The position numbers and the translations under genes are program-made. Below are positions 18,959 through 53,742 of a DNA stretch of 64,000 bases, one piece after another (positions within the stretch are counted from its first letter, which is position 1; the number at the start of each line of letters is the position of its first letter). Source of the stretch: Sphingomonas sp. (GTDB taxonomy: Bacteria; Pseudomonadota; Alphaproteobacteria; Sphingomonadales; Sphingomonadaceae); assembly GCF_030145815.1 (NCBI RefSeq), contig NZ_JAIXHL010000014.1, positions 1 to 64,000 on the forward strand. The letters run 5' to 3'. Below the pieces are notes generated by a model. The model was not told the origin of the DNA. It was given only the letters and a program-made list of their open reading frames with translations, and did no database searches.

Positions 18959-19149
18959 GGTCTAAACTCCTGTATGTCCGTCGGAATCGCGCTTCCGCGC
19001 GCTGAAATCCTGTTTGAACAGATAATTAGGGGCCAGACCCGGCGCGAAAAGGGCGGGAAGGGGGCAATTTGCGAAACGCCGCGTTCGCGAAGTGTCGCGC
19101 GCGGCAATCGGTTCAGCGACATAGCGGATGGTGCTGCCACCGCGGCGAC

Positions 19150-19224
19150 TGGAGCGGGCGAAGGGATTCGAACCCTCGACCCCAACCTTGGCAAGGTTGT
19201 GCTCTACCCCTGAGCTACGCCCGC
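19150..19224 (-). tRNA. tRNA-Gly (anticodon GCC)
   Basis: The minus strand folds as a complete cloverleaf: acceptor GCGGGCG/CGCCCGC, D arm GCTCAGGGGTAGAGC, anticodon loop CTTGCCAAG with anticodon GCC, and T arm GAGGGTTCGAATCCCTT. Discriminator T and CCA (19152-19150) are encoded. No intron is present. Confidence 0.97.
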
Positions 19225-19278
19225 TCTCTGGCGCCATATGTGCCCACTCGCAGCGGAGGGGGCGGGGCAAGGTGGCGG

Positions 19279-19307
19279 CCTCTAGCAGCGGGTTTGTGGG
19301 TCTGCAA
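19279..19307 (-). promoter_or_regulatory. Predicted promoter of tRNA-Gly
   Basis: TTGCAG (19307-19302), 17 bases, then TAGAGG (19284-19279) on the minus strand. This gives a start near 19272, about 48 nt before the tRNA 5' end. The spacing matches the other promoters noted in this window. Confidence 0.45.
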
Positions 19308-19411
19308 GGGGGAAGTTGCGGGATTCGCGATTCCCGCTCAGGGGGTTGGCCCTGAGCCCGCGAGCGCCCAAATAGGGCGCAACGCATTGCTCGAACGACA
19401 AGGGATTCGCC

Positions 19412-39973: not shown

Positions 39974-40570
39974 TTATCCGCCCGTTTGGCCCGTGAGGCA
40001 AGCGATGACCGCCGCAACTTCGGCGCGCGTCGCCTCTTTCGTCGTGCCGGTATCGATCACGAAATCCGCCCGCGCGCGCTTCTCCGCATCGGGCATCTGC
40101 CGCGCCAGGATCGACTCGAACCGCTCGACCGTCATGCCCGGCCGCGCCAGCACCCGCGCGCGTTGGACCTCTGCCGGAGCCGACACGACGACGATCTTGT
40201 CCACCTGCCGCCACCCACCGGCCTCGAACAGCAACGGCACGTCGAGCAACACCAGCGGCTTGTCGGCATTGGCCTTGAGAAATTCATTGCGGGCATGGGC
40301 GACGGCGGGGTGGACGATCCCCTCCAGCCGCTTGAATGCCTCCGGATTGCCGAACACCGCCTCGCCGAGGAGCGTGCGATCCACCCCCAATTCGGTCGTC
40401 GTATCCGGAAACTCGGCCTCGATCGCCGCGACTAGCGCGCCGCCCGGCCCCTGCAGCCGGTGTACCTCCGCATCGGCGTCGAACACCGGCACCCCCGCCT
40501 CGGCAAACATCGCCGCGACGGTCGACTTGCCCATCCCGATCGAACCGGTGAGGCCAAGGACGAGGCTCAT
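39974..40570 (-). CDS. coaE: Dephospho-CoA kinase
   Basis: CoaE makes CoA by phosphorylating the ribose 3'-OH of dephospho-CoA. The 198-aa protein has the P-loop GLTGSIGMGKST (6-17), the DAD motif at 31-33, and the LVLLDVPLLFE segment with the catalytic region. ATG overlaps the aroE stop by four bases. Confidence 0.96.
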   Translation of the reverse strand: MSLVLGLTGSIGMGKSTVAAMFAEAGVPVFDADAEVHRLQGPGGALVAAIEAEFPDTTTELGVDRTLLGEAVFGNPEAFKRLEGIVHPAVAHARNEFLKANADKPLVLLDVPLLFEAGGWRQVDKIVVVSAPAEVQRARVLARPGMTVERFESILARQMPDAEKRARADFVIDTGTTKEATRAEVAAVIACLTGQTGG

Positions 40571-41379
40571 TTCAGTAGCAGCGCCCGCAACTCCGCATCA
40601 TGCTCGCGCGGCGCCGCCTTGCCGAAGAACAGCTCGAACGCCAGCGCCGCCTGGCCGATCAGCATTTCCAGCCCGTCAACCGTCTCCAGCCCGCGCGCCC
40701 GTGCCGCCGCCAGCAACCCGGTCTCGAGCGGCGCATAGACCGCGTCATAGACCAGCGCGTCTTCAGGCAGGTTCGACAGGTCGAGGTCGAGCGGTGGCTG
40801 GCCGAGCATCCCTAACGCGCTGGCATTGACCAGCAACGCCACCGGAGGCAGCGGCGCATCGAGTGCTACCACATCGCCCTTGAGCCCGAACGTCGCGAGA
40901 AGCCCCATCGCCTTCAACGGGGACCGGTTGAGGATCGTGACATGCCCGACCCCCGCCCGTGCCAGCGCGAACAGGATCGCGCGCGCCGCACCGCCCGCAC
41001 CCACCACCGCGACCGGCGCACCCTCCAGATCGAACTCGGCAATCGGAGCGTAGAAGCCCGCGGCGTCGGTATTGGTCCCGATCACGCTCCCATCCGGCTG
41101 CCGCAAAATCGTGTTCATCGCACCGATCGTGTCACGGACCCCACCCGGATCATCAACAAGATCCATCACGGCGATCTTGTGGGGCAGCGTGACATTGCAA
41201 CCGCGCCAGTCAGCATCAGCGCAAGCACCGGCTATGTAATCTACCAGCTCGTCCGGCGGGACGTGGAAAGCGCGATAATCGCCCGGAATCCCAAGTTTAG
41301 AGAGCCAGAACTTGTGGATCAGCGGCGACTTGGATTGCGCGATGGGATCGCCGATGACTTCGGCAAAGGGAGTGGTCAT
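40567..41379 (-). CDS. aroE: Shikimate 5-dehydrogenase
   Basis: AroE reduces 3-dehydroshikimate with NADPH in aromatic amino acid synthesis. The 270-aa protein has the shikimate-binding SKSPLIH (16-22), the catalytic Lys 68 (NVTLPHK), IGTNTDAAGFYAP and the nucleotide motif VVGAGGAARA. ATG 41379 gives the family N-terminus; the stop of maf overlaps it by four bases. Confidence 0.96.
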   Translation of the reverse strand: MTTPFAEVIGDPIAQSKSPLIHKFWLSKLGIPGDYRAFHVPPDELVDYIAGACADADWRGCNVTLPHKIAVMDLVDDPGGVRDTIGAMNTILRQPDGSVIGTNTDAAGFYAPIAEFDLEGAPVAVVGAGGAARAILFALARAGVGHVTILNRSPLKAMGLLATFGLKGDVVALDAPLPPVALLVNASALGMLGQPPLDLDLSNLPEDALVYDAVYAPLETGLLAAARARGLETVDGLEMLIGQAALAFELFFGKAAPREHDAELRALLLK

Positions 41380-41963
41380 GACGTCAACTGGCCTCTGGTC
41401 CGCAGATAATCGAGGATGTTGAGCAACGGCATCCCCAGGATCGTATAATGGCTGCCCTCTATCCGGCTGAACAGCTGCACCCCCGGCCCCTCGACCCGGT
41501 AGCAACCGACACAGCCTGAAATCGCCGGCCATTCGGCGTCGAGATACTCCGCGATGAAGGCGTCCGACATCGGCCGTACCCATAATCGCGCCCGGTCGAC
41601 ATGCCGCCACACGGCGCGGCCATTCTCGGCAACTACCGCCGCGCTGTAGAGGTCATGGCGCTTGCCCGACAGCATCCGAAGGTGCTTCTCGGCATCCGCG
41701 CGGTCGACCGGCTTGTCGAGCAACGTCCCGTCCTCGATCGCTACGACCGAGTCCCCACCGAGCACCAGCGTGCCCGGCACCCGCTGACTGACCTTGAGCG
41801 CCTTCATCTCCGCGAGCGCATCGGCCAAGTCGCGCGGCGCAACTTCGCCCATCGCGGCTTTGACCGCATCCTCGTCGACCAATGCCGGCAGCGCCTCATG
41901 CGCCACACCCGCCGCCGTCAGCATCGCGCGCCGCGACGCACTGGTTGATGCCAGCACGATCAT
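41376..41963 (-). CDS. maf: Maf-family nucleotide pyrophosphatase
   Basis: A 195-aa Maf protein that hydrolyses modified or non-canonical nucleoside triphosphates. It begins LASTSASRRAMLTAAG, has LGGDSVVAIEDGTLLDKP and LRMLSGKRHDLYSA. The ISGCVGCYRVEGPG segment near residue 150 is where Maf sub-families differ; the YceF type, which acts on 7-methyl-GTP, is most likely but not certain. Coupled to aroE and ppsR by four-base overlaps. Confidence 0.92.
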   Translation of the reverse strand: MIVLASTSASRRAMLTAAGVAHEALPALVDEDAVKAAMGEVAPRDLADALAEMKALKVSQRVPGTLVLGGDSVVAIEDGTLLDKPVDRADAEKHLRMLSGKRHDLYSAAVVAENGRAVWRHVDRARLWVRPMSDAFIAEYLDAEWPAISGCVGCYRVEGPGVQLFSRIEGSHYTILGMPLLNILDYLRTRGQLTS

Positions 41964-42781
41964 GCGCGGCCTCCCGCGGTCACCCGCTCATTCGCCATGG
42001 TGATGATCGCTGCTGCCGTTTCCTCGATCGACCGCCGCGTCACATCGATGACCGGCCAGCCATTGTCGGCGAACATGCGCCGGGCATAGGCGACCTCCTT
42101 CTGCACCGCCTCCTGCTCGACATAGCTGGTCTCGTCCTGCTGGTTGAGTGCGAGCAGGCGGTTGCGCCGTACCTGGATCAGTCGCTCGGGACTGGTGGTC
42201 AGACCGACGACCATCGGATTTTTCAGCGAAAACAGCAGTTCGGGTGGCGGCGATTGCGGCACGATCGGGATATTGGCGACCTTGAACCCGCGATTGGCGA
42301 GGTAGATCGATGTCGGCGTCTTCGACGTGCGCGACACCCCGGCGAGCACGATGTCCGCCTCCTCCCAATTCTCCCAATTGACGCCATCGTCATGCGCGAT
42401 GGTGAACTGGATCGCATCGACGCGCGCGAAATAGGCAGCGTCGAGCATATGCTGCCGCCCCGGCCGCGCCTTCATCTCCTGTCCCAGCAGATTGGACAGC
42501 GCATGATTGACCGGATCGAGCGGCGCCACGGCGGGCAGCCCGATCGCGCGGCACCGCGTCTCGAGCTGACGGCGGATCTCCGGGTTCACCAGCGTGAAGA
42601 TCACCAGCCCTGGATTCTGCGCGATCTCCGCCAGGATCCGCTCGAGATGCGTCTCGCTACGCACCATCGGCCAGAAATGGCGCAGCACCTCGACATCGTC
42701 GAACTGCGCGAGCGCCGCCTTTGCGATATTCTCCAGCGTCTCGCCGGTGGAATCGGAGAGCAGATGCAGGTGCAGTTTCAC
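41960..42781 (-). CDS. ppsR: PEP synthase regulatory protein PpsR (DUF299)
   Basis: A bifunctional kinase/pyrophosphorylase that regulates phosphoenolpyruvate synthase or pyruvate phosphate dikinase. The 273-aa protein starts KLHLHLLSDSTGETLENIAKA, and the P-loop-like GVSRTSKTPTS is at 148-158. GTG at 42781 gives this N-terminus; the frame stays open into the origin but that part has no family match. In alphaproteobacteria this gene (Rickettsia RP001 homologue) borders the replication origin, opposite hemE, as here. Confidence 0.94.
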   Translation of the reverse strand: MKLHLHLLSDSTGETLENIAKAALAQFDDVEVLRHFWPMVRSETHLERILAEIAQNPGLVIFTLVNPEIRRQLETRCRAIGLPAVAPLDPVNHALSNLLGQEMKARPGRQHMLDAAYFARVDAIQFTIAHDDGVNWENWEEADIVLAGVSRTSKTPTSIYLANRGFKVANIPIVPQSPPPELLFSLKNPMVVGLTTSPERLIQVRRNRLLALNQQDETSYVEQEAVQKEVAYARRMFADNGWPVIDVTRRSIEETAAAIITMANERVTAGGRA

Positions 42782-42807
42782 CTGAAAATCGCCTGTCTGG
42801 ACAGTTC

Positions 42808-42816
42808 TGTGGAAAA
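42808..42816 (-). promoter_or_regulatory. DnaA box (TTTTCCACA)
   Basis: The minus strand reads TTTTCCACA, a full match to TTWTNCACA. It is the leftmost consensus box of the putative origin. Confidence 0.7.
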
Positions 42817-42930
42817 CATGGGGGAAATCGCTAGCGCAACGCGCCGGACCCGCCAAGCGGGGGACTCTGTCCACGCTCCGGGTCATTCGTCCACAACCGC
42901 GCCCACAGCGACGCGATCCGCTCCACAGCC

Positions 42931-42939
42931 TGTGGATAA
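42931..42939 (-). promoter_or_regulatory. DnaA box (TTATCCACA)
   Basis: The minus strand reads TTATCCACA, the strongest DnaA-binding 9-mer. It is followed at once by TGTGGACGG (42940-42948), a weaker box in the same direction. Confidence 0.8.
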
Positions 42940-43102
42940 TGTGGACGGTTGAATCGAATCGCGGCGGAATCGCGGGACTCCGCGCCGTCAATCTGTTGGC
43001 AGAATGGGGACGAACGCTTAAGCCCCAGCATCCACGCACCAACACACAACTACATCTTTCTAAGATTCTTCTTCTTATTTTTGTTGAGAGACGGGCGACC
43101 CT

Positions 43103-44134
43103 GTGACTGCGAAAAAACTGCTCCGAGTGCTGTCAGGGGAACGCGTCGATGCCCCGCCGATGTGGCTGATGCGTCAGGCGGGTCGCTATCTCCCCGAATA
43201 TCGCGCACTCCGCGCCGAGAAGGGCGGGTTTCTCGAGTTGGTCAACGACAGCGACGCCGCGGCCGAAGTCACGCTCCAGCCGATCCGCCGCTTCGGCTTC
43301 GATGGCGCCATCCTGTTCTCCGACATCCTCGTCGTTCCGCACGCGCTCGGCCAGGACCTGTGGTTCGAAGCCGGGGAGGGACCGCGCCTTGCCCCCAAGC
43401 TGGTCGATACCGCGCTGGAAAGCCTTACAGCTGCCCCACAGCGGCTCGACCCGGTCTATGGCACCGTCACCCGTGTCGCCGCTGCGTTGCCGCCTGACGT
43501 GACGTTTCTGGGCTTTGCAGGAAGTCCCTGGACCAACGCGACGTACATGGTCGCGGGGCAGGGGAGCCGCGACCAGAGCGAGACGCGCCGCATGGCCTAT
43601 ACCGACCCGGCGGCGTTTCAGGCGATCATCGATGCCATCGTCGCGATGACCATCGACTATCTCGCCAAGCAGATCGAAGCGGGGGGGGAGGCGGTGCAGC
43701 TGTTCGACAGCTGGGCCGGATCGCTCAGCCCTGCGCAATTCGAACGCTGGGTGATCGCTCCCAATGCCGCAATCGTCGCCGGGCTGCGCTCACGTTGCCC
43801 GAATGCGAAAATTATCGGTTTCCCGAAGGGCGCCGGCGGCAAGCTCGCCGCCTATGCCCGGGAGACTGGCGTAGACGCGATCGGCCTCGACGAAACCGTC
43901 GATCCCGCTTGGGCGCACCGGGAGCTCCCCGCCGGCATGCCGGTTCAGGGCAATCTCGACCCGCTCGCGCTGATCGCGGGCGGGGAGGAGCTCAAGGCAG
44001 CGGCAACCCGCGTGGTTGATGCCCTGCGCGACCGCCCCCATATCTTCAATCTGGGCCACGGCATTCAACAGGACACGCCGATCGGCCATGTCGAACAGCT
44101 GATCGCGATCGTTCGGGGGACAGCACCAGCATGA
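43103..44134 (+). CDS. hemE: Uroporphyrinogen decarboxylase
   Basis: HemE removes four carboxyl groups from uroporphyrinogen III. The 343-aa protein has the N-terminal PPMWLMRQAGRYLPEYR (12-31) with the substrate-binding Arg pair, ILFSDILVVPHALG with catalytic Asp, FAGSPWTNATYM, and GHGIQQDTP near the end. It starts at GTG 43103, has only a weak ribosome-binding site, and borders the probable origin. Its stop overlaps the hemJ ATG. Confidence 0.96.
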   Translation: MTAKKLLRVLSGERVDAPPMWLMRQAGRYLPEYRALRAEKGGFLELVNDSDAAAEVTLQPIRRFGFDGAILFSDILVVPHALGQDLWFEAGEGPRLAPKLVDTALESLTAAPQRLDPVYGTVTRVAAALPPDVTFLGFAGSPWTNATYMVAGQGSRDQSETRRMAYTDPAAFQAIIDAIVAMTIDYLAKQIEAGGEAVQLFDSWAGSLSPAQFERWVIAPNAAIVAGLRSRCPNAKIIGFPKGAGGKLAAYARETGVDAIGLDETVDPAWAHRELPAGMPVQGNLDPLALIAGGEELKAAATRVVDALRDRPHIFNLGHGIQQDTPIGHVEQLIAIVRGTAPA

Positions 44135-44586
44135 CCGGATTTCTGAGCTTCGCCTGGCTGTGGGTGAAGGCCGCGCACGTCATCTTCGTGATCTTCTGGA
44201 TGGCCGGCCTGTTCATCCTGCCACGCTATCTCGTCCATCATCAGGAGGCGCTTGGCGACCCGGTGCAGGCGAAAGCATGGGCCGAACGCGAAGCCAGATT
44301 GCGCCGCGTGATCCTCACCCCCTCGCTGGTGATCGTCTGGGTGCTGGGGCTTGCGCTCGCGATCAATCTCGGGCTGTTCGAGGGCGGTGCGGGCCTCGGC
44401 TGGCTCCATGCGAAGCTGCTGCTGGTCGTGCTGCTATCCGGCTATCACGGATGGGCGATCGCCTATTCGAAGAAGCTCGCGGCGGGGCAGGGGTCGCTGA
44501 CCTCCAAACAGCTGCGCATGGCCAACGAAATCCCGGCGATCTTCGTCGCACTGATCGTGATCCTCGCGGTGGTGCGTCCGTTCTGA
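44131..44586 (+). CDS. hemJ: Protoporphyrinogen oxidase HemJ
   Basis: A 151-aa, four-helix membrane protein of the HemJ family, which oxidises protoporphyrinogen IX. The conserved His is in WVKAAHVIFVIFWMAGLFILPRYLV-type helix 1, and the conserved Lys in LHAKLLLVVLLSGYHGW. Position between hemE and rho is typical of alphaproteobacteria. It is a four-base overlap with hemE. Confidence 0.93.
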   Translation: MTGFLSFAWLWVKAAHVIFVIFWMAGLFILPRYLVHHQEALGDPVQAKAWAEREARLRRVILTPSLVIVWVLGLALAINLGLFEGGAGLGWLHAKLLLVVLLSGYHGWAIAYSKKLAAGQGSLTSKQLRMANEIPAIFVALIVILAVVRPF

Positions 44587-44740
44587 TCGCTTGACTTGAA
44601 CCCGGCCGAATCCTAATCCGCTTGGGTCGCGTCGCCGTTCCGGCGGCGGCCCGGCATCCCTCCTTTTTTCCTCAAGCCATCGCCTCCCGCGCGTCCAAAC
44701 GCCCGAAAACCTTGTAGCGATCGCCAGACGGACTTCTCCC
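44587..44740 (+). promoter_or_regulatory. Long C-rich leader of rho
   Basis: The 154-nt gap before rho contains a small hairpin (CGCCG-TTC-CGGCG, near 44631-44645) and a stretch from about 44651 to 44711 with about three C for each G and a run of six T. Such C-rich, G-poor RNA is the kind Rho binds, and rho is autoregulated by attenuation in other bacteria. No terminator fits well: the T-run is too far from the hairpin. Confidence 0.4.
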
Positions 44741-45997
44741 ATGCATTTGAAAGATTTAAAGAAAACCGCGCCCGCCGAACTGGTGACGATGGCCGAGGAA
44801 CTCGGCGTCGAAAGCGCGTCCACGCTGCGCAAGCAGGACCTGATGTTCGCCATCCTCAAGGCCCAGGCCGAAAATGGCGAGCTGATCATGGGCGAGGGCA
44901 CGATCGAAGTGCTTCAGGACGGCTTCGGCTTCCTGCGCAGCCCGCAGTCCAACTATCTCGCCGGCCCCGACGACATCTATGTTTCGCCGAACCAGGTCCG
45001 CAAGTTCGGACTGCGCACCGGCGACACGGTCGAAGGCGAAATCCGCGCCCCCAAGGATGGCGAGCGCTATTTCGCGCTGACCAAGCTAGTCAGCGTCAAT
45101 TTCGACGATCCCGATGTGGTCCGCCATCGCGTCAATTTCGACAATTTGACGCCACTCTACCCGGATCAGAAGCTCAAGCTCGATCCTGCCGATCCGACGC
45201 AAAAGGACAAGTCGGCGCGCGTCATCGACATCGTCAGCCCGCAGGGGAAGGGCCAGCGCACGCTGATCGTCGCGCCGCCGCGCGTCGGCAAGACGGTGAT
45301 GCTGCAGAACATCGCCAAGGCGATCACCGACAATCATCCCGAGGTGTTCCTGCTCGTCCTGCTGATCGACGAGCGGCCCGAGGAAGTCACCGACATGCAG
45401 CGCAGCGTGAAGGGTGAGGTGGTCAGCTCGACCTTCGACGAACCCGCCACGCGCCACGTCCAGGTCGCCGAAATGGTGATCGAAAAGGCCAAGCGCCTGG
45501 TCGAGCACAAGAAGGATGTCGTCATCCTGCTCGACTCGATCACCCGCCTCGGCCGCGCCTACAACACCGTCGTGCCCAGCTCGGGCAAGGTGCTGACCGG
45601 CGGTGTCGACGCGAACGCGCTCCAGCGTCCGAAGCGCTTCTTCGGTGCCGCCCGCAATATCGAGGAAGGCGGCTCGCTCTCGATCATCGCCACCGCGCTG
45701 ATCGACACCGGCAGCCGCATGGACGAAGTGATCTTTGAAGAGTTCAAGGGCACCGGCAACTCCGAAATCGTGCTCGACCGCAAGGTCGCGGACAAGCGCA
45801 TCTTCCCGGCGCTCGACGTCGGCAAGAGCGGCACGCGCAAGGAAGAGCTGCTGCTCGACAAGGCGACGCTGTCGAAAATGTGGGTGCTGCGCCGCATCCT
45901 CATGCAGATGGGCACCACCGACGCGATGGAGTTCCTGCTCGACAAGATGAAGGATTCGAAGACCAACGAAGACTTCTTTGATTCGATGAACCAATAA
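44741..45997 (+). CDS. rho: Transcription termination factor Rho
   Basis: A hexameric RNA helicase that ends transcription. The 418-aa protein has the N-terminal helix bundle ([20 protein letters not shown]), the cold-shock RNA-binding fold with [12 protein letters not shown] at about 62-73, Walker A APPRVGKT near 178-186, [12 protein letters not shown] (Q/R-loop region) and [13 protein letters not shown]. No insertion domain is present. Confidence 0.97.
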
Positions 45998-46020
45998 ACG
46001 GCCAGAGGGTTTAGCCGCAC

Positions 46021-49565: not shown

Positions 49566-51401
49566 ATGCAATCCCTCGACGTGATCGTGATCGGCGGCGG
49601 CCATGCCGGGACCGAAGCAGCGGCTGCGGCCGCCCGCTGCGGCGCGCGGACGGCGCTCATCACGTTTGACCCAGCGATGATCGGCGCGATGTCGTGCAAT
49701 CCGGCGATCGGTGGGCTCGGCAAGGGGCATCTGGTCCGCGAAGTCGATGCCCTGGACGGACTGATCGCCCGCGCTGCTGACGCTGCGGCGATCCACTACC
49801 GACTGCTCAACCGCTCTAAAGGGCCAGCAGTGCAGGGACCCCGCGTGCAGGCCGACCGCGTCCGCTACGCCGCCGCCATTCAGACGATGCTAGCCGCCCA
49901 ACATGGCCTCGATATCGTCGCCGGGGAAGCGGTCGCGCTGTTGATTGAGCAGGGCAGGGTGGCGGGTATCCGGCTGGCCGACGATCGCGTGCTCCGCGCA
50001 CCGGCAGTTGTCCTTGCCAGTGGCACCTTCCTGGGCGGCCGCATTTTCCGGGGCGAGGAGCGCGAGACCGGCGGCAGGGTAGGGGAGCGTGCCGCGACCG
50101 CATTGGGTGTCCAGCTGCGCGACTGCGGCCTCCCGATCACCCGGCTCAAAACCGGCACGCCCCCGCGATTAGATGGCCGCACGATCGACTGGGGCGCGCT
50201 TGATGAGCAACCCAGCGACGCCGACGACTGGCGCATGTCGCCCATGACATCGGGACCCCGGCTGCCGCAGCTCGCCTGCGCAATCACCCGCACCACGCTC
50301 GAAACCCATGAGATTATCCGTGGCGGACTCGACCGCTCACCGCTGTTCAGCGGCGCAATCGAAGCCGGCGGCCCCCGCTACTGCCCCTCGATCGAGGACA
50401 AGATCTTCCGCTTCGGCGACCGCGATGGGCATCAGGTTTTTCTCGAACCGGAGGGGCTGGCGACTCACCTCGTCTATCCCAACGGCCTTTCGACCTCGCT
50501 TCCGACCGATGTTCAGTCCGCGATGATCGCATCGATTCCCGGCCTCGACCGTGCCCAGATCGTCACGCCGGGCTATGCCGTCGAATATGACCATGTCGAT
50601 CCGCGCGCCCTGTCGCACCAGCTGGAGTGCCGCGATCTTCCTGGCCTTTATTGTGCGGGCCAGATCAACGGCACTACCGGCTATGAGGAGGCGGCCGCTC
50701 AGGGCCTTGTTGCCGGGATCAACGCCGCAGCCGCAGTGCTCGGCCACCCCCCGACCGTCTTCCCGCGCGAGATCAGCTATATCGGAGTGATGATCGACGA
50801 CCTGACGCTGCAAGGCGTGACCGAACCCTATCGCATGCTCACCGCCCGCGCCGAACACCGCCTGCACCTCCGCGCCGACAATGCCCATAGCCGGCTCGCC
50901 GAATTGGGCGAGGCGGCGGGTTGCCTTGGGCCAGACCGGCGGGCGTTCGTCGCCCAGCGGCGTGACGCGCGCGCACGGCTGGACATGTTGTTCGCCGACA
51001 CCCGCACCGCCCATGTGCTCGGTCAGGCCGGCGCGCCCGTGGCGCAGGACGGCGCCCGCCGCACCGCATTCGAATGGTTACGGTTTCCAACTGTGACGCT
51101 CGATCATCTCCAGATCGATGCCGGCGGTGCGGACCCGGCAGTGCTGGCCGAGCTGATCGAGGATGCCCGCTACGCACCCTATCTCGAACGCCAGGCGCAG
51201 GAGAGCGCGACCATGCAGCGCGCGGACGGGACGCGCATTCCCGCCGAGCTCGACTATGCATCCGTTCCAGGGCTGTCGAACGAGATGGTCGAGCGGCTTG
51301 CCACCGCGCGTCCGGACACGATTGGCGACGCTGCGCGCGTCCGCGGCATCACGCCCGCAGCATTGACCGCGATCCTCCTCCATGTGAAGCGCGCGGCATG
51401 A
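49566..51401 (+). CDS. mnmG: tRNA U34 carboxymethyltransferase subunit MnmG
   Basis: The FAD-binding partner of MnmE. The 611-aa protein begins [22 protein letters not shown], has [23 protein letters not shown], the [11 protein letters not shown] motif, and the C-terminal [21 protein letters not shown]. The ATG at 49566 gives the family N-terminus; the frame is open upstream into mnmE and parS 1 but without family match. Confidence 0.97.
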
Positions 51402-52006
51402 CCAAAGACGAAGCTCGCGACTGGATACGCAGCCGTTACGATGTTTCACGTGAAACACGGCTCGCAACCTTTGTGGACCTGCTGCGCGATGAGTCCACGC
51501 GTCAGAACCTCGTTTCCCCAACGTCCCTGGAGCAAATTTGGGCGCGGCACATCGTTGATTCAGCTCAGCTGCTTGAGCATGCCGATGTCGGCGGCTTGTG
51601 GCTCGACATCGGCAGCGGCGCCGGCCTGCCCGGAATCGTCCTAGCGATCCTCCGTGACGAGCCCGTCGAACTGGTCGAACCGCGTAAACTCCGCACGGCC
51701 TTTCTCCAGCATTGCGTTGATACGCTCGGTCTCACCAACGTTACCATCCACACGGCCAAGGTAGAGCGAACAACGGGACGCGCCGCCGTCATCACCGCCC
51801 GCGCTGTCGGATCGCTCGACACACTGTTCCGCATCGCTCGCCACCGGAGCGATCGGTCCACAATCTGGGTGCTCCCCAAAGGCCGCAATGCGCAATCGGA
51901 GGTGGAAGATGCGCAGCTATGGTGGCAAGGTTCGTTCCACGTGGAACCGAGCGTGACCGCACCGGACTCGCTCATCATCGTCGCCAAAGAGGTGCGCCCC
52001 AGATGA
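51398..52006 (+). CDS. rsmG: 16S rRNA G527 N7-methyltransferase
   Basis: RsmG methylates G527 of 16S rRNA. The 202-aa protein has [13 protein letters not shown], the SAM motif [16 protein letters not shown] (68-83) and [12 protein letters not shown]. Two parS palindromes lie in its coding sequence: one at the codons for DVSRET near the start and one at FHVEP near the end. It overlaps mnmG and parA by four bases each. Confidence 0.95.
51442..51457. promoter_or_regulatory. parS: parS site 2 (universal consensus)
   Basis: TGTTTCACGTGAAACA is a perfect 16-bp match to the universal parS. It is inside rsmG, at codons for DVSRET. Confidence 0.92.
51933..51948. promoter_or_regulatory. parS: parS site 3
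   Basis: CGTTCCACGTGGAACC contains the same 14-bp palindrome as site 1. It lies inside the 3' part of rsmG, 56 bases before the parA ATG. Confidence 0.8.
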
Positions 52007-52782
52007 TCTGCATCGCCATTGCGAATCAGAAGGGCGGCGTGGGCAAGACCACGACCGCGATCAACGTCGGCACCGCACTCGCCGCGACCGGCAAGCGGGT
52101 GCTGCTGCTCGATCTCGACCCGCAGGGCAATTGTTCCACTGGCCTTGGCATCGGTCGCGCTGATCGCGAGCGGTCGACCTACGACTTGCTGATCGGTGAG
52201 ACCAACCTCGAGGACGTGTTTGTCCCGACCCGCGTGCCGGGCCTCGACATCGTTCCCGCCACGGTCGACCTCTCGGGCGCGGAGATCGAGCTGATCGAGT
52301 TCGAAGCACGCACCCATCGTCTGGCCACCACGATCGAGCGCAGCGCACAGCGTTGGGATGTTGTGCTGATGGACTGTCCGCCCTCGCTCGGGCTGCTCAC
52401 CATCAACGCGATGGTCGCGTCGGACGCGCTGCTCGTACCCCTCCAATGCGAATTCTTTGCCCTCGAAGGGCTTAGCCAGTTGCTCAACACGGTCGAGCGC
52501 ATCCGCGGACGCTTCAATCCCGGCCTGTCGATCCTGGGTGTCGTCCTCACCATGTACGACCGCCGCAACCGTCTGACCGATCAGGTTGCGGACGACGTCC
52601 GCGCCGTCCTGGGCAAGGTGGTGTTCGATACCGTCATCCCGCGCAACGTCCGCCTGTCCGAGGCGCCCAGCCACGGCCTGCCTGCGCTGATCTATGATTA
52701 TCGCTGCGCGGGGTCCGAAGCCTATATCGCTCTTGCCCGCGAAGTGATCGATCGCCTGCCCAAGCTGAAGAAGGCCGCATGA
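52003..52782 (+). CDS. parA: Chromosome partitioning ATPase ParA
   Basis: A 259-aa deviant Walker ATPase that moves ParB-parS complexes. The N-terminus [22 protein letters not shown] has the deviant Walker A motif KGGVGKT (10-16), with LLLDLDPQGN and VLMDCPPSLG following. The short N-terminus is that of chromosomal ParA (Soj) without a DNA-binding extension. It overlaps rsmG and parB by four bases. Confidence 0.97.
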   Translation: MICIAIANQKGGVGKTTTAINVGTALAATGKRVLLLDLDPQGNCSTGLGIGRADRERSTYDLLIGETNLEDVFVPTRVPGLDIVPATVDLSGAEIELIEFEARTHRLATTIERSAQRWDVVLMDCPPSLGLLTINAMVASDALLVPLQCEFFALEGLSQLLNTVERIRGRFNPGLSILGVVLTMYDRRNRLTDQVADDVRAVLGKVVFDTVIPRNVRLSEAPSHGLPALIYDYRCAGSEAYIALAREVIDRLPKLKKAA

Positions 52783-53711
52783 CCGAAGAGACACCGCAAG
52801 AGCCGACGACGCCCGCTGCCTCGCCACTCAGCCCCCGCAAGGCGCGGCCCGGCCTTGGCCGTGGTCTCAGCGCATTGCTGGGCGATGCCGAGCGTGAAGA
52901 GCCCGTTCGTCCTGGTACCGAGCCGTCGATGGGCGTGCGGCTGCTCCCGGTCAGCTCGCTGTCGCCGCACCCGGATCAGCCACGCCGCCATTTCGATGAG
53001 GATGCGCTGGAGGAGCTCGCCAAGTCGATCGCGATGCGTGGCCTCATTCAGCCGATTGTCGTGCGCCCGCATGGCAAGGATTATCAGATCGTCGCCGGCG
53101 AACGCCGCTGGCGCGCCGCCCAGCGTGCACGACTGCACGAGGTGCCGGTCATCGTTCGCGACCTGGACGAGGCGCAGACCGTCGAAATCGCGATCGTCGA
53201 GAATATCCAGCGTGAGGATCTCAACGCAATTGAAGAGGCCGAGGCGTACGCCAAGCTGATCAACGAATTCGGCCATAGCCAGGAGGCACTGGCCAAGGTC
53301 GTCCACAAGTCGCGCAGCCATATCGCGAACCTGATCCGCCTGCTTGACCTGCCCGCCACCGTCCGCCAGCGCGTGGTCGAAGGCGCGCTGACCATGGGCC
53401 ACGCCCGCGCGCTGATTGGTGCGCCGGACCCGGAAAAGCTCGCCAAGATCGTCGTCGAACGTGACCTGTCGGTACGCGACACCGAAAAACTCGCCCGCGA
53501 AGCCAAGCCGCGCGCGGCGGGGAAGGGTGGCGAGAAGGGCGGCGGCGGCAGCAACGCCGACATCGTCGCGCTGGAGCGCCAACTGGGCGACGTGCTCGGC
53601 CTCAACGTCAAGATCAGCTTCGGCGAGAAGGGCGGGGCGCTTACGCTGGCCTATTCGACGCTGGACCAGCTGGACATGATCTGCCAGCGCCTGACCGGCG
53701 AGAAAATATAG
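52779..53711 (+). CDS. parB: Chromosome partitioning protein ParB
   Basis: A 310-aa CTPase that loads at parS and spreads. The N-terminal KARPGLGRGLSALLG segment binds ParA, the CTP-binding region has GERRWRAAQRA (the conserved GERR/R motif), the helix-turn-helix reads ALAKVVHKSRSHIANLIRLL, and a C-terminal dimerisation domain follows at about 265-310. The three parS sites just upstream are its expected loading sites. Confidence 0.96.
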   Translation: MTEETPQEPTTPAASPLSPRKARPGLGRGLSALLGDAEREEPVRPGTEPSMGVRLLPVSSLSPHPDQPRRHFDEDALEELAKSIAMRGLIQPIVVRPHGKDYQIVAGERRWRAAQRARLHEVPVIVRDLDEAQTVEIAIVENIQREDLNAIEEAEAYAKLINEFGHSQEALAKVVHKSRSHIANLIRLLDLPATVRQRVVEGALTMGHARALIGAPDPEKLAKIVVERDLSVRDTEKLAREAKPRAAGKGGEKGGGGSNADIVALERQLGDVLGLNVKISFGEKGGALTLAYSTLDQLDMICQRLTGEKI

Positions 53712-53742
53712 TTATATCAGTAGTTTAGGTGTCTTCTAAAGC

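Follow-up and report, generated by a model that had tools for sequence, protein, structure and literature searches.

Where does replication of the chromosome begin in a Sphingomonas strain that is known here only as a draft genome of 4.66 Mb in 82 contigs? The DNA analysed (hereafter the window, a single stretch of 64,000 nucleotides) holds a gap between two genes that a preliminary description, made from the letters alone, had taken for the probable origin. Comparison with related genomes upholds this reading, and with high confidence the origin of this chromosome can now be placed: positions 42782–43102 very probably represent the DnaA-dependent chromosomal oriC, as supported by the GC skew of relatives, a single parS site 8.3 kb away, a recurring gene order, the DnaA boxes and an AT-rich tract. 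The proposed ends are the exact ends of the intergenic region, which is 321 bp long, and the flanking genes diverge from it as had been described.

42782–43102, no strand: predicted oriC, the whole ppsR–hemE intergenic region, assigned from gap conservation, GC skew in relatives and the nearby parS
41960–42781, minus strand: ppsR (PPDK/PEP synthase regulator), boundary gene; its profile score lies above the NF003742 cut-off and below the NF049928 cut-off
43103–44134, plus strand: hemE, boundary gene

The ppsR product is presumably the protein otherwise listed as DUF299/COG1806. For the comparison, the best 80 of 265 matching loci were taken together with the window, and the ppsR–hemE gap was present in all 81 (median 321 bp, range 282–537 bp). 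Within this set of 80, the proteins encoded by the three nearest hemE loci are 95–96% identical to that of the window. The gap has an AT content of 43%, compared with 34% for the window as a whole. No Rfam family matched at gathering thresholds within 40000–46000, and dnaA, rightly described as lying outside the window, was found on another contig of the draft genome. Three of the loci carry unexpected titles: those labelled Arthrobacter, Bacillus and Brevundimonas (L022, L064 and L052) are sphingomonad-like hemE–ppsR loci with HemE proteins 73–78% identical to the query, and the titles are probably wrong.

The two consensus DnaA boxes of the preliminary description are the only occurrences of TTWTNCACA in the 64 kb, both on the minus strand, and its several degenerate boxes correspond to ten further 9-mers within the gap at two to three mismatches from TTATCCACA. 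The latter figure is a raw count, and six of the ten are given here as parts.

42808–42816, minus strand: DnaA box 1, TTTTCCACA, from strict pattern search and alignment
42828–42838, no strand: block CGCTAGCGCAA between box 1 and the box cluster, a near-palindrome CGCTAGCG conserved in the alignment of 81 loci
42867–42875, plus strand: degenerate DnaA box CTGTCCACG, three mismatches
42887–42895, plus strand: degenerate DnaA box TCGTCCACA, two mismatches, core conserved in the alignment
42919–42927, plus strand: degenerate DnaA box CGCTCCACA, three mismatches, facing box 2 (CCACAG-CC-TGTGG)
42931–42939, minus strand: DnaA box 2, TTATCCACA, perfect consensus, from strict pattern search and alignment
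42940–42948, minus strand: degenerate DnaA box, three mismatches, abutting box 2
43005–43013, minus strand: degenerate DnaA box, three mismatches, with a TCCCCA core that we take to resemble the W-box
43028–43036, plus strand: degenerate DnaA box GCATCCACG, three mismatches, adjoining the AT-rich tract

We know of no protein that binds the near-palindrome. The W-box is a class of DnaA sites named in PMC4468827. Taken alone, the number of strict boxes in the window is weak evidence, since two were found against 0.54 expected and 8 of 100 shuffles reached at least two. Nor are such boxes enriched genome-wide, as TTWTNCACA occurs 37 times in the draft genome and its reversed control pattern 52 times. 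It is their clustering at this locus that exceeds chance: 148 strict boxes lie in the 27,256 bp of the 81 gaps versus 66 in 1,551,161 bp of flanking DNA, a 128-fold higher density. Only two pairs of strict boxes less than 1 kb apart exist in the draft genome, one in the origin gap and the other before ccrM. At least one strict box was found in 71 of the 81 gaps and at least two in 49; the remaining 10 have none, and degenerate boxes must therefore serve there. Pairs of CTGTGGA-like sites spaced by 105–135 bp occur in 69 of 81 gaps, the commonest spacing being 123 bp, as in the window.

The AT-rich stretch noted earlier at 43050–43087 is 74% AT and forms part of a slightly longer tract.

43044–43087, no strand: AT-rich tract, likely the unwinding element (DUE), with a GANTC at 43064, from the AT scan

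Among the 63,962 windows of 38 bp, 14 are at least as AT-rich as 43050–43087, and they fall at two places only, 43044 and 53701. An AT-rich tract recurs at the locus in the relatives. The second place, 53701–53741, lies at the end of a parB-like gene. A reading of the CTTCTTCTTATT tract as a BUS/DnaA-trio element was rejected, as the published pattern (a box with up to two mismatches, a spacer of 0–16 and at least three NAN trios read 3'–5', PMC8287927) is absent from the window in either direction. Over the 81 gaps the pattern was met 18 times towards hemE and 23 times towards ppsR (largest values in 20 block shuffles, 12 and 19), in a test that accepted either box orientation and a single box and was thus looser than the published program; with four trios, the counts stayed within the shuffle range.

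The GC skew was measured in five complete relatives because the strain's own assembly consists of 82 contigs, and 20-kb samples were taken round each chromosome. The sign of the skew changes at hemE–ppsR, and the interval of the best split (300–440 kb wide at the given sampling) holds the locus in four of the five. In the fifth relative (G091), the locus ranks 9 of 169 positions and the skew optimum is 190–330 kb away. Altogether, 26 of 30 samples to the right of the locus were positive and 23 of 29 to its left negative, one sample at the locus itself being excluded. The skew within the window is of no help here, since the cumulative curve has no minimum at 42.8 kb and keeps falling to about 60 kb. 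To the right of the gap, a partitioning site and two genes named by eye from their translations were found:

51442–51457, no strand: parS TGTTTCACGTGAAACA, exact, inside the start of an rsmG-like frame (ATG at 51398)
52003–53711, plus strand: parA-like (52003–52782) and parB-like (52779–53711) genes

This parS, 8.3 kb from the gap, is the only copy in the genome within two mismatches. Of the relatives' loci, 65 extend at least 10 kb to the right of the gap, and 56 of these have a parS with up to two mismatches on that side; exact copies were seen in 16 of the full 81 loci.

By eye, the longest nearly invariant block of the aligned loci is GTCAANCTGTTGGCA, referred to as the GTCAA element.

42987–43001, plus strand: GTCAA element GTCAATCTGTTGGCA, unique in the genome, matching only the IHF-like core TCAA-N4-TTG

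The exact GTCAANCTGTTGGCA occurs in 40 of 199 family genomes with one copy each (reversed control, 7 copies in 6 of 199 genomes) and is absent from the other 159, so it is to be regarded as a family feature with variants or absences. Wherever else it was found, it stood beside ppsR or hemE (39 of 39 sites, with 1–2 kb fetched; hemE in 38, ppsR in 38), the two incomplete cases being L119, which has no hemE, and L106, which is cut by a contig end. It can thus be used as a one-per-genome tag for locating the origin in a part of the family, the 40 of 199 genomes. At L106, the contig (end of G144:C1) stops inside the origin, 37 bases past the element, which is probably the cut made when the circle was opened. 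As to a binding protein, the pattern WATCAN5WTR, applied to IHF in PMC1914354, is absent from the window and present in 8 of 81 gaps. The full pattern WATCAAN4TTR has no match in the window's gap either, and the short core TCAAN4TTR is found in 70 of 81 gaps. Hence, IHF as the binder of the element is a guess: the short core fits, the two fuller patterns fail, and 14 fixed bases exceed what IHF needs.

A further property of the gap is its density of GANTC, the site of the methyltransferase CcrM. Besides the copy in the AT-rich tract, the following sites were found:

42863–42867, no strand: GANTC, GACTC
42951–42955, no strand: GANTC, GAATC
42956–42960, no strand: central GANTC, position conserved in the family
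42967–42971, no strand: GANTC, GAATC
42976–42980, no strand: GANTC, GACTC

The six GANTC of the gap compare with 0.8 expected from the window (Poisson, 0.00015). The 81 gaps together contain 392, whereas 200 shuffles gave 100.7 on average and never more than 128; the counts of seven comparable palindromic 5-mers run from 32 to 120. No 321-bp piece of the flanks has six or more (0 of 4370, the largest count being five). As GANTC has been reported to favour intergenic DNA (PMC8116508), coding DNA would be an unfair sole control and was dropped as such. Compared with 430 other intergenic pieces, delimited by a crude gene caller of our own, the gaps are five times denser (14.4 versus 2.85 per kb), and all 177 intergenic pieces of 250 bp or more stay below the origin median. 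Elsewhere in the window, the intergenic stretch 18959–19411 holds five GANTC.

The sites are fixed in position as well as numerous. For this, 120 loci were aligned (80 relatives, the window and 39 from the GTCAANCTGTTGGCA search, the latter picked for the GTCAA element and not for GANTC), and four were left out of the position count (L010 and L013, misplaced; L009 and L034, with four mismatches). The central GANTC lies at −30/−31 from the GTCAA element in 115 of the 116 loci and within −40 to −26 in all 116; these are not 116 independent species, because L008/L109, L073/L091 and L071/L103 are the same genomes twice (400 bp identical). Across 115 rows, its N reads C 62 times and A 53 times, with flanks little conserved beyond a preceding C; the base table was built on chosen GANTC instances, so that only the flanks and the N column are informative. 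The AT-rich part carries a GANTC in 84 of 116 loci (N being T in 33, A in 33, C in 17 and G in 1), and the remainder of the gap also shows a threefold excess of GANTC (224 versus 73 in 77 gaps). This pattern looks like selection for a methylation site, although a protein-binding motif at the central position would also be possible since N is limited to A and C there. Clustered target sites of an orphan adenine methyltransferase are present in the predicted origin, with a CcrM match in the strain's own genome and methylation predicted. In the open-access literature searched, no report of clustered GANTC sites at sphingomonad origins was found.

Could this cluster gate the origin through CcrM, similar to Dam and SeqA but with another reader? 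Such gating would be an addition to the reading as oriC and not an alternative to it, and we consider it possible but doubtful. The enrichment over shuffles and intergenic DNA, the central site in 115 of 116 loci and the AT-part site in 84 of 116 argue for it, whereas the A/C-limited N could instead mean a protein-binding motif. The genome encodes two GcrA-family matches above the cut-off (G000:C5:84590–85219 and G000:C29:40665–41078, one strong, one weaker); SeqA was looked for and not found, which counts against gating. A contrast within the family is precluded, as 197 of 199 genomes have a CcrM-fragment match. Of 80 gaps collected at the level of the class, 21 were set aside for want of a ppsR match in the stretch and 3 for exceeding 900 bp, 24 in all, leaving 50 CcrM-positive and 6 CcrM-negative cases. 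A genome was scored negative when its best E value was poorer than about 1e-60 or, as in G208, the match was broken, and five genomes absent from the results were taken by elimination to be G328, G329, G330, G331 and G338. The negative gaps were not significantly poorer in GANTC (15 versus 6.0 expected, n = 6) than the positive ones (134 versus 38.4, n = 50; p = 0.58). Two of the six negatives, G231 and G294 (loci L273 and L225), have no convincing CcrM match but GANTC-rich gaps, with 6 and 3 sites versus about 1.0 and 0.6 expected; CcrM may have been lost recently, its gene may have been missed, or GANTC may have some other role.

Published work also weighs on this question. A model from 2008 assumed that the Caulobacter origin must be fully methylated (PMC2217572), and GANTC motifs have been noted in Caulobacter origins, yet CcrM is described as dispensable for the control of initiation there (PMC3973325). 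In Agrobacterium, CcrM affected ori2, whereas its depletion caused no visible change in the timing of the DnaA-dependent ori1 (PMC11514494). As the class-wide comparison did not separate and these studies speak against a general role, gating is treated as a hypothesis only. A possible second half of a control circuit was found upstream of ccrM:

L084:495–527, equal to G000:C10:146194–146226: DnaA box pair upstream of ccrM

The pair consists of two perfect boxes, 126–150 bp upstream, with starts 24 bp apart. Among the best-scoring 30 family ccrM loci (not a random draw), a strict box lies in the first 60 bp of the gene or no more than 350 bp upstream in 20, with none in the rest of the 3.3 kb; the exact TTATCCACA is found in 19 of 30 and a site with at most one mismatch in 22 of 30. 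Control of ccrM by DnaA where CtrA sites are missing was predicted in 2010 (PMC2877005), and to this prediction our data add the position and conservation in sphingomonads. On the strength of these sites, one may picture initiation in sphingomonads as timed by CcrM methylation of the origin, in a DnaA–CcrM loop that would be a counterpart of Dam/SeqA evolved apart. Hemimethylated GANTC sites at the centre and in the AT-rich tract, recognized by a reader other than SeqA, with GcrA as a candidate, would then keep the origin shut, while DnaA would drive ccrM via the conserved upstream box. We regard this full scheme as unlikely. The dense, fixed CcrM sites bring the old question of methylation-timed, DnaA-dependent initiation in alphaproteobacteria down to changes of a base pair or two, and this in sphingomonads, most of whose origins have no recognizable CtrA site (70 of 81 gaps have none with up to one mismatch).

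A different explanation of the same features would be that the true origin lies elsewhere and that the gap is a divergent promoter region for ppsR and hemE, under the control of DnaA and of GcrA acting at methylated GANTC. Both genes do diverge from the gap, the genome encodes GcrA and a CcrM match, and GANTC sites are known to work in Caulobacter promoters (PMC3973325, PMC8116508). However, a scan of 42700–43150 found neither promoters nor terminators, the search for sigma-70-like promoters being a weak test in this group, and the split of the relatives' skew at the locus, the parS 8.3 kb away and the origins of Caulobacter and Rickettsia, which occupy the same hemE–COG1806 gap (PMC1914354), also speak against it. 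We therefore rate this explanation as very improbable. It is scarcely credible that the origin lies nearby in another gap, for example at the AT-rich place around 53.7 kb beside the parB-like gene: 53701 equals the origin tract in AT richness, the skew minimum of the window is nearer to 60 kb and a distance of 10 kb is below the resolution of the sampled skew, but TTWTNCACA occurs nowhere else in the window, and ppsR–hemE is favoured both by the clustered boxes and by the recurrence of the gap.

Returning to the ppsR–hemE gap as a DnaA-dependent origin, we infer an order of binding, opening and timing from the observed sites, their positions and conservation and the skew in relatives. DnaA would settle on the strong boxes at 42808 and 42931 and spread over the weak boxes between and beside them. 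A bending protein, perhaps IHF, on GTCAATCTGTTGGCA may draw the box cluster near the AT-rich tract 43044–43087, which would open and allow helicase loading. ParB at parS, 8.3 kb away, would then separate the new origins. Each initiation would leave the GANTC sites of the cluster and of the AT-rich tract hemimethylated until restored by CcrM.

For comparison with known systems, the closest well-described relative is the Caulobacter origin Cori. Both lie between hemE and the COG1806 gene and have an AT-rich region, of 40 bp in Cori (PMC1914354); weak DnaA boxes and a parS, in Caulobacter within 8 kb of Cori (PMC4468827), as well as several GANTC sites (PMC3973325), are further likenesses. Unlike Cori, the window's gap has no CtrA site TTAA-N7-TTAA with up to one mismatch, and 11 of the 81 gaps have one. 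The G-box, TGATCCACA, is absent from the window's gap and from all 81. In addition, two strong boxes are present, one of them the perfect TTATCCACA, and dnaA is on another contig. The preliminary assignment to a Caulobacter type rather than that of E. coli thus holds for location and the mostly degenerate boxes but not for regulation: CtrA site and G-box are missing, and box 2 matches the E. coli consensus perfectly. An indirect role of CtrA is possible, since an effect of CtrA on replication has been reported for Sphingomonas melonis (PMC8116508).

With E. coli oriC, the locus shares consensus and weak boxes, an AT-rich tract and a cluster of methylation sites. E. coli oriC also has an IHF site, for which there may be a counterpart here, and the gene neighbourhood differs. 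In contrast to E. coli, SeqA was not found, the likely methylase is CcrM rather than Dam, and sequestration is at most hypothetical. The methylation sites are eleven GATC in E. coli (PMC10073500) versus six GANTC here.

Within the family itself, the kind of origin is already known, and sphingomonad origins beside hemE have been predicted in print. For Sphingopyxis and most Sphingomonadaceae in DoriC, Ori-Finder and DoriC place the origin near hemE, in Sphingopyxis with conserved DnaA boxes and a putative DUE (PMC4741004), which agrees with our window in locus, origin type, boxes and DUE. A putative origin was likewise predicted near hemE in Novosphingobium PP1Y, there also near a dnaA gene (PMC4059872). 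The available portions of the Sphingopyxis report (PMC4741004) make no mention of the GTCAANCTGTTGGCA element, the GANTC cluster or parS. What this analysis adds is the GTCAANCTGTTGGCA element at the locus together with the dense, positionally fixed GANTC cluster.
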